Positions 7,859-35,763 of a DNA stretch of 37,673 nt are shown piece by piece (within the stretch, counting starts at the first letter, position 1; every line of letters begins with the position of its first letter). Both the position numbers and the translations under genes were made by a program. The notes beneath the pieces are model-generated. The model was not told where the DNA came from. It saw only the letters and a program-made list of their open reading frames with translations, and made no database searches. Source of the DNA: a bacterium (lineage in GTDB: Bacteria > JACRDZ01 > JAQUKH01); assembly GCA_040754625.1 (NCBI GenBank), contig JBFMCF010000063.1, forward strand, positions 1 through 37,673, given 5' to 3'.

Positions 7859-7972
7859 GGCTGAGCGAAAAGCCCGAAGCCAAGGCCACAGGAATAAAAT
7901 GCCCGGAGGCATAGCTCTATGCTATGTCGAGGATATTTTATTCCGAGAACGCGGGATTCGGGATTTGCAGCC
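7859..7972. repeat. Long imperfect palindrome with conserved hairpin core
   Basis: This lies in the 414-bp gap (7572-7985) below hydA. Outer arms pair imperfectly (GGCTG / CAGCC and CCCGAA / TTCGGG). GGAATAAAAT (7891-7900) pairs perfectly with ATTTTATTCC (7935-7944), and an inner CATAGC/GCTATG-type stem closes the centre. Read on the minus strand, the core 7939-7896 matches the core at 15512-15556: AAAAT-A-TCCTCGA on one side and GCCTCCGGGCATTTT on the other. It may act as a transcription stop after hydA. No gene is seen in this gap. Confidence 0.7.
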
Positions 7973-14729: not shown

Positions 14730-15446
14730 ATGAAAGAATTATATCACCAGGCAAATCAGGGAAATAAAAAAGCAATTGAAGAAGTCCTGAAGGAAATAGA
14801 GCCGGTACTGAATCAAATAGCCGCGCATTACTTTTCTCCCGGCATGGACAAACAAGACATCAAACAAATACTGCTTACTGGCGCATGGCAGGCCATGATC
14901 AGGTTTAATCCCAAAAAGGTGTCAGATAAAGGCAATGTGGAAAAAATATTCCTCATGTGGACAATTAAACTGGCTGAACAATATCTATGGAGAGATTTTC
15001 GCTCACGCGACCCTGACAGGCGCGGGCATATGGCCACCAAGGAATTATCGGAATGTATTTCCCTGGGTGAAAAAATAGACAGCTCCCGTGACACGTCCAT
15101 GAATATCGACGAAATAATTCCCGACAGCAAGATAAAAATGCCTTTAGATTTAATCTCTGAAAAACAAGAAGCGGAAATCATAAATTCTCTTATTGACCGT
15201 TTAAGCAAAGATGAAAAAATCGTAATTGAACTGCACTATGTCAAAGGATTAAGTTTTTCTCACATTGGCAGGAAACTTTCTAAAAGCAAACAGTGGATTT
15301 TTATTATACATCAAAAGGCAATTAATCATTTAATAAGATGGTGGAATTGGCAGAAAAAGTATAGTTTTAAATTAACCAATGATAATGAATTGCTGTCATC
15401 AAGAAGGAAAGCACTGGAACACCTGCTTAAAAAAGAAGAGCAATAG
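14730..15446 (+). CDS. RNA polymerase sigma-70-family factor (sigma-2/sigma-4 regions)
   Basis: A 238-residue protein. The N-terminal part (YHQANQGNKKAIEEVLKEIEPVLNQIAAHY, then MDKQDIKQI) resembles sigma region 2. Residues about 145-205 (IINSLIDRLSKDEKIVIELHYVKGLSFSHIGRKLSKSKQWIFIIHQKAINHL) are a region-4 helix-turn-helix, with IGRKLSKSKQW as the recognition part. The core-binding part is divergent, so it may be a specialised or non-canonical sigma. No Shine-Dalgarno site is seen before the ATG; a TAAAAT lies nine bases upstream. The stop codon TAG is the first three bases of the inverted-repeat element at 15444. No anti-sigma gene is adjacent. Confidence 0.75.
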   Translation: MKELYHQANQGNKKAIEEVLKEIEPVLNQIAAHYFSPGMDKQDIKQILLTGAWQAMIRFNPKKVSDKGNVEKIFLMWTIKLAEQYLWRDFRSRDPDRRGHMATKELSECISLGEKIDSSRDTSMNIDEIIPDSKIKMPLDLISEKQEAEIINSLIDRLSKDEKIVIELHYVKGLSFSHIGRKLSKSKQWIFIIHQKAINHLIRWWNWQKKYSFKLTNDNELLSSRRKALEHLLKKEEQ

Positions 15447-15625
15447 AAGCGGTTTCATAAGTCCCTTCTATTGCAGTTGGCTGTAGGACTTATGCACTGC
15501 GTTATCGGCACAAAATGTCCTCGATGTCCGCTGCGGCGGACGCCTCCGGGCATTTTGCGCCTGCTGCCTTGTTCATAAGTCCTTCGCTCAACTTCATGAC
15601 GAACCGACTTATGAAACCGCTTCTA
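15444..15625. repeat. 182-bp palindromic element with perfect 20-bp terminal inverted repeats
   Basis: The left end TAGAAGCGGTTTCATAAGTC (15444-15463) is the exact reverse complement of the right end (15606-15625). CATAAGTC/GACTTATG recurs four times in alternating direction: 15456, 15487, 15574 and 15606. The centre is a hairpin: GCACAAAATG pairs with CATTTTGCGC (9 of 10), and GTCCGC pairs with GCGGAC around TGCG. The outer TAG on each side is the stop codon of both convergent genes. It holds no open frame of note. It may be a MITE-like element with TA ends, and probably serves as a two-way transcription stop. Confidence 0.85.
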
Positions 15626-16690
15626 GTATTTTAATTTTGGGTCAAATATATCCCTTAAACCATCCCCTAAAAAATTAAACGCCATAATCGCGATAAAAAT
15701 AAACATGCCGGGGATAAGAACCCATGGAAAATTTGTCAAAACATTAACACTTTTTGCCACAGAAAGCATATTCCCCCAGCTTGCCTGTGGTTCCATAATC
15801 CCTAATGACAAAAGGCTTAAGGCTGATTCTCCAAGTATATAACCCGGAATGCTTAACGTGGCGGATATAATGGCGTAAGACATAGTATTGGGCAGGATAT
15901 GGCGGTATATAATCCTCCATGGACTTGCTCCAATGGACCTGGCACCCAAAACATACTCTTCTTCACGCAATGAAAGGACCATTCCGCGGACAACACGTGC
16001 CATACCGGCCCACTCAATAAAGCTCATGGCAATTATTATTAAAATATAAATAATAACTGAAGATAAAGCCGGCGGAAAGGTGGCCCTGAGCGCCAGAAGA
16101 AGATAAAAATGCGGGAAAGACATTATTATCTCGCAAAAACGCATAATGAAATTATCAACCCATCCTCCAAAATATCCTGAAATCCCTCCAACAATCATAC
16201 CGATAATAAATGATATAAAAACACCAATCAGCCCTATTGAAAGCGATATCCTGCTTCCATATAAAATCCTCGTAAATATGTCCCGGCCCAGGTAATCGCT
16301 GCCGAAAATAAAAATTTTAGCCGGTCCATCAACACCAAAAAGATGAATGTTGGCTTTAAATATTCCCAGAAATAAATGTTCTTCCCCTTTAACAAAGAAA
16401 TGCATAAAATACTTTTCCCGATCGTTTATTATATAACTTTTCTGGAATGTTTCACTATTTATCTCTCCTGACGTCCCATAAATAAACGGCCTGATATAAA
16501 ATTTCCCGCCTTTATCAAAAAAATGAATTTTTGTGGGCGGATGATAGCTTTTATCCCTGTTCTGAATATAATAACTGTAAGGTGAAATAAAATCCGCGAA
16601 AACAGCGCAGAAATAAAGGATAAAAAGTATTCCCGCGCCAAAAACCGCTAATTTATGTTTTTTGAATTTTTTTAAAAACATATATGTCAT
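15623..16690 (-). CDS. Peptide/nickel-type ABC transporter permease (OppC/DppC-like)
   Basis: An inner-membrane permease of 355 residues. An N-terminal membrane segment (KLAVFGAGILFILYFCAVFADFI) is followed by a long external stretch to about residue 140, longer than in typical OppC. The BPD_transp_1 core then follows, with GSDYLGRDIFTRILYGSRISLSIGL and the ATPase-contact EAA loop EEYVLGARSIGASPWRIIYRHILPN. It pairs with the OppB-like permease 25 bases upstream. No ATPase subunits follow: the gene ends in the palindromic element, whose TAG is its stop codon. Two ATGs (16690 and 16681) are possible starts, and neither has a strong ribosome site. Confidence 0.88.
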   Translation of the reverse strand: MTYMFLKKFKKHKLAVFGAGILFILYFCAVFADFISPYSYYIQNRDKSYHPPTKIHFFDKGGKFYIRPFIYGTSGEINSETFQKSYIINDREKYFMHFFVKGEEHLFLGIFKANIHLFGVDGPAKIFIFGSDYLGRDIFTRILYGSRISLSIGLIGVFISFIIGMIVGGISGYFGGWVDNFIMRFCEIIMSFPHFYLLLALRATFPPALSSVIIYILIIIAMSFIEWAGMARVVRGMVLSLREEEYVLGARSIGASPWRIIYRHILPNTMSYAIISATLSIPGYILGESALSLLSLGIMEPQASWGNMLSVAKSVNVLTNFPWVLIPGMFIFIAIMAFNFLGDGLRDIFDPKLKY

Positions 16691-35596: not shown

Positions 35597-35763
35597 TAGA
35601 AGTTGTTTCATAAGTTGGTTTCGTAGTGAAAAAGTAATATTTGAGGCGAAACAAGGAAGTCGAGCCGAGCATATCAGCCTTGATCTGTAAGGCGAGACTG
35701 ACGCAGTTGCAGCCCAAATATTACTTTTGTAATAGAAATAAGACTTATGAAACAGCTTCTCTA
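35597..35763. repeat. Second palindromic element of the TAGAAG...CTTCT family
   Basis: The left end TAGAAGTTGTTTCATAAGTT (35597-35616) pairs with GACTTATGAAACAGCTTCT (35742-35760), with a few mismatches. Inside, AAAAGTAATATTTG (35630-35643) pairs perfectly with CAAATATTACTTTT (35715-35728). The ends match those of 15444-15625, while the interior is different. It lies between divergent genes, touching the M50-like start region and leaving only 72 bases to the cysteine desulfurase start. Confidence 0.8.

Follow-up and report, generated by a model that had tools for sequence, protein, structure and literature searches.

A MITE-like fold-back element whose ends hold the stop codons of two convergent genes

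The 182-bp element at positions 15444 to 15625 of the window (the whole stretch of DNA analysed, 37,673 nucleotides long) is best explained as a MITE, with a probability of about 0.72. It would be a transposase-less sequence moved by an end-recognising DDE transposase and inserted at TA, with the stop codons at its two ends arising as a by-product. The element, to which no strand is assigned, is a MITE-like fold-back without coding capacity or any protein-like ORF. Several features expected of a MITE were found here: a short, non-coding sequence with terminal repeats, dispersed copies and empty orthologous sites. Below, G000 is the genome that carries the window, G001 a sister genome of the same genus and G071 a distant genome. 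C63a denotes the element at 15444 to 15625 and C63b a second element in the window; all other copies are named by their contig in G000.

The left 20-bp terminal inverted repeat, TAGAAGCGGTTTCATAAGTC, occupies 15444 to 15463 on the forward strand, and the right one, at 15606 to 15625 on the reverse strand, is its exact reverse complement; this confirms the perfect 20-bp ends with an outer TAG that had been described from the letters alone (hereafter, the sequence-only reading). The outer TA of the left repeat fits a target TA, and the element proper starts inside it with GAAGC. The same repeat carries stops in two of the three frames, TAG at +0 and TAA at +14. Further inward, the inner left arm (GGACTTATG, 15486 to 15494, forward strand) pairs in the predicted fold with the inner right arm (CATAAGTCC, 15574 to 15582, forward strand). 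The apical hairpin region (15522 to 15545, forward strand), identified from the alignment and the folds, has the stem GTCCGC/GCGGAC, in whose place three other near-full copies carry the unrelated and likewise paired CATAGC/GCTATG. The fold closes nearly end to end with a minimum free energy of -91.5 kcal/mol (z = -12; 0 of 200 shuffles as stable), and other copies fold alike. The sequence-only reading had regarded four alternating CATAAGTC/GACTTATG sites as possible transposase-binding sites. All four are present, at 15456 to 15463, 15487 to 15494, 15574 to 15581 and 15606 to 15613; however, since they make up two nested arm pairs in a single predicted fold-back, four separate protein sites are not needed to explain them.

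On both sides, the element is entered by a gene, and the two genes are convergent. The ECF-sigma-like gene (14730 to 15446, forward strand, 238 aa; Pfam matches Sigma70_r4 and Sigma70_ECF) stops at the TAG of 15444 to 15446, which is the left outer TAG. The OppC-type permease gene (15623 to 16690, reverse strand, 355 aa; Pfam matches BPD_transp_1 and OppC_N, with a complete permease domain that extends to residue 354 of 355) stops at the complement of 15623 to 15625, the right outer TAG. The ORF coordinates thus bear out the use of the outer TAGs as stop codons by both neighbours.

The element belongs to a family and is not a chance structure: three more near-full copies (C90, C93 and C66, 87-88% identity) occur in G000 together with partial ones, and the genome-wide search for the end pattern proposed in the sequence-only reading returned 23 matches in G000 to the 18-bp end (up to 3 mismatches) versus 1 for a reversed-pattern control. 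The family end pattern is TAGAAGCNGTTTCATAAG. C63b (35597 to 35763, no strand assigned) and C96 are full elements with family ends and another core; the ends of C63b, TAGAAGTTGTTTCATAAGTT...GACTTATGAAACAGCTTC, are related to those of C63a. Lone ends or part-copies were found on C19, C60, C71, C122, C136, C33 and C23. Placement in G000 is mostly intergenic, and C90, C93 and C63b are located upstream of genes. In G071, an 83-bp element with the same ends occurs at about 10 places. Searches of plasmid and phage sequences gave no match to the element. Several candidates were set aside: two ends 1.6 kb apart on C60 have the wrong orientation for one element; the end matches on the viral contigs L084, L102 and L103 and on L104 are isolated matches due to chance that seem to lie in coding sequence; the 3-mismatch matches on L037 and L039 are ordinary sequence; and, at C60 and C96, the start codons that seem to lie within the end (ATGAAACC..) probably reflect mis-extended ORFs. 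Elsewhere in the window, the stretch at 7881 to 7952 (minus strand), between two ORFs, is 79% identical to the core hairpin and has no ends; cores and ends may be exchangeable modules.

Comparison with the sister genome supports insertion of a mobile element. On contig JAQUKH010000024 of G001 (L014), the sigma and OppC genes are convergent with 21 bp between their stops and no element. The other orthologous loci in G001 were located by one concatenated protein search, and all the orthologous sites examined there lack the element, namely C63a, C63b, C96, C66, C33, C136 and C90 (7 sites). The best empty sites are those of C63b, with collinearity on either side in L123, and C96, where the sister reads CACAACTAAGATTT. 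On L123, the element-free collinear site for C63b lies near 2055. At C63a itself, the sister genes for sigma and OppC have divergent tails (DPKQ-stop for OppC there versus DPKLKY-stop in G000), and the ancestral stop is not readable from them.

Most copies in G000 and G071 fit the border rule xTA[GAAG...CTTC]TAy, in which x and y vary. C and G predominate at x and y in G071, giving CTAG; the usual x in G000 is a pyrimidine. The G000 copies that contradict a 4-bp duplication are C63a (ATAG/CTAG), C90 (TTAG/CTAT) and C93 (CTAT/CTAA). Because the outer bases vary around a mostly constant TA, the borders suggest that TA is what is duplicated or required at the target, and they speak against a 4-bp duplication. 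On the other hand, C66 is bordered by CA/AA rather than TA/TA, and small changes have eroded the borders of C63b and C96; for this reason, a 2-bp duplication is something we infer. Insertion at TA, as originally proposed, stands on the TA at most borders and the empty sister sites, with C66, C63b and C96 as its exceptions. The C63b flanks, AGTTTAAC and AGTATAAAC, look alike, and a longer target duplication is possible there. It is also conceivable, but doubtful, that the preferred target is a palindrome centred on TA, with C-TA-G in G071 and chiefly Y-TA-R in G000, and that target and end together would be pre-adapted to land harmlessly on the shared stops of convergent genes, as at C63a. Such a target, if real, would hold a TAR stop on both strands, and the G of the element would rebuild TAG on both sides.

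The sequence-only reading had gone further and suggested that the element lands near gene ends and itself supplies the stops, as a low-cost strategy that leaves a stop codon on either side. Six G000 genes do end inside an element end, which has stops in most of its frames as described above. Four of the six stop at the outer TAG (sigma, OppC, an HD-domain gene at C19 and the cNMP-binding gene at C96, C96R); the remaining two, a glycosyltransferase-like gene at C122 and a GATase gene at C136, use the inner TAA. The proposed tally of outer TAGs was thus made, and four of six versus the one-third expected by frame is not a significant excess (P = 0.10). The Pfam domains that reach the C-terminus (OppC and glycosyltransferase) are complete. 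At C96, the sister reads AAATCT-TAG-TTGTGAAAA, and the cNMP-binding-domain gene has the ending AAATCT-TAG whether or not the element is present, the same TAG being formed in G000 with the first base of the element. Since the element-free gene ends at the same codon, an outcome that the sequence-only reading had named as counting against its proposal, the C96 element sits exactly in a pre-existing stop. The C136 orthologues end K-I-I-E-N-S-K-stop and K-I-L-E-A-V-S-stop and are equal in length. When the flanks of C63a are joined at a single TA, the sigma stop is unchanged (CAA-TAG), whereas OppC reads on through a further 39 codons; either the element or an unseen change in the flank therefore did supply the present OppC stop. 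One may speculate that a C or T, found at this place in most other copies, once preceded the TA; both stops would then have pre-existed. Based on these results, stop supply as a favoured strategy is weakened and now looks unlikely. The most plausible view is that target sequence, end sequence and purifying selection together produced the stops at 15444 and 15625 as a by-product, and the stop-codon idea is mostly accounted for in this way, with OppC as a possible exception.

The identity of the mobiliser bears on another part of the sequence-only reading, in which a mariner/IS630-type transposase inserts the element at TA. The TA borders agree with this, and RUP of Streptococcus pneumoniae is a bacterial TA-inserting MITE tied to IS630 (PMC2229807). 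However, no DDE_3 (IS630) transposase was matched in G000, G001, G002 or G071, the DDE_3 matches in G003 and G139 lack ends of this kind in their vicinity, and the ends are more like those of IS1182-type elements, which makes the IS630 link improbable. That the sequence is instead a non-mobile cellular element, a bidirectional terminator or RNA structure kept for its function between convergent genes, would suit its very stable fold on both strands, its convergent neighbours and the replacement of the apical stem with pairing kept. Against this, the sister locus lacks it, copies also lie upstream of genes, an Rfam search left the element unmatched and a terminator scan found no terminator-like site, and we regard such a role as very improbable. 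The nested palindromes and the mostly intergenic location might also recall REP/BIME elements moved by a TnpA-REP (RAYT) Y1 transposase. DDE-moved MITEs typically have long perfect terminal repeats, TA borders and discrete ends, and the element shows these DDE-type traits, which leaves the REP/BIME origin with hardly any probability.

For the preferred reading, a MITE moved by a DDE transposase, the most likely mobiliser is of the IS1182 group, the best candidate and not a proven one. This rests on comparison of an IS1182 remnant, end likeness and borders. G000 retains an 83-aa C-terminal IS1182 transposase remnant on L090 (C28; NF033551, E = 1.5e-15), and G001 holds a near-complete IS1182 transposase relative truncated at a contig end; the putative right end of its element starts GAAGCTGT and, taken as its reverse complement, is GAAGCTGTCGAAAAACTC. 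PF13751 was used to collect IS1182-type elements; in one of them, L153 (its transposase matches NF033551 at E = 4.8e-90), each end carries AGAGGCTGTCTAATAAGT, which matches the MITE end AGAAGCTGTTTCATAAGT at 15 of 18 positions and is not identical to it. Both matches fall exactly at the terminal repeats of L153; in a shuffle control, 4 of 200 shuffled MITE ends gave at least 2 such places anywhere in IS1182-type loci. L086, an IS1182 element from the same phylum, has the borders TA[GGAGGCTG...]TA, and the PF13751 loci L152, L154 and L167 have CTAG on both sides. Unlike the IS1182 family, which is related to IS5, the element has no transposase, and its borders fit 2 bp rather than the 4-bp repeat listed for ISPse1, a Paracoccus IS1182 member (PMC3281130), which C63a, C90 and C93 do not show. 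The search for a full-length copy with the same ends and a transposase found none, either in G000 or among the roughly 290 genomes sampled, and transposase loci collected with PF01609 and PF13358 do not carry such ends. An autonomous partner is not a strict requirement for a MITE, and such partners are often lost.

The course of events may then be pictured as follows. A DDE transposase, most likely of the IS1182/IS5 group, would recognise the terminal repeats and move the element to TA dinucleotides, which would often fall inside TAA or TAG stop codons. With G as the first base of the element proper, an insertion into the TA of a stop would rebuild TAG; gene-end insertions would therefore cost little and survive, while selection would presumably remove those inside genes. 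The TA within TAA/TAG stops and the first base G together would give a simple reason for accumulation at gene ends. In Coxiella burnetii, the insertion lies at the 3' end in every functional annotated gene affected by QMITE1 and QMITE2, where it overlaps the gene by 1-50 bp and occasionally creates a new C-terminus; the cause of this pattern was called unknown, and TA termini were noted for most bacterial MITEs (PMC5896051). QMITE1 and QMITE2 are likewise short fold-backs with the same 3'-end bias, but they belong to another family and host and are likened here by description. RUP resembles the element in size (about 100-200 bp), terminal repeats, TA target and lack of coding, but differs in having a matching IS630 (IS630-Spn1) in its genome, whereas here no IS630 was found in G000 and the ends are IS1182-like. 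The element is thus real, mobile and ordinary in kind, MITEs at gene 3' ends being already known; the finding adds a MITE family from an uncultured lineage of which few genomes have been sampled, with ends shared by a distant genome.

Three further observations concern repeats in G000. In the partial C23 copy (L005, 1458-1520), the junction with what looks like a terminator hairpin (AAAATGCCCACTTT..AAAGTGGGCATTTT) falls exactly on the element-shared GGGCATTTTG, which suggests recombination or template switching. L006 (end of C19) and L008 (start of C118) carry the same truncated element and following sequence on two contig ends, which would fit an assembly break at the repeat. In addition, another long inverted repeat (CCCCGTTAGAG..CTCTAACGGGG) at 1740-1890 of L090 (C28) adjoins the IS1182 remnant and is possibly a further MITE family.
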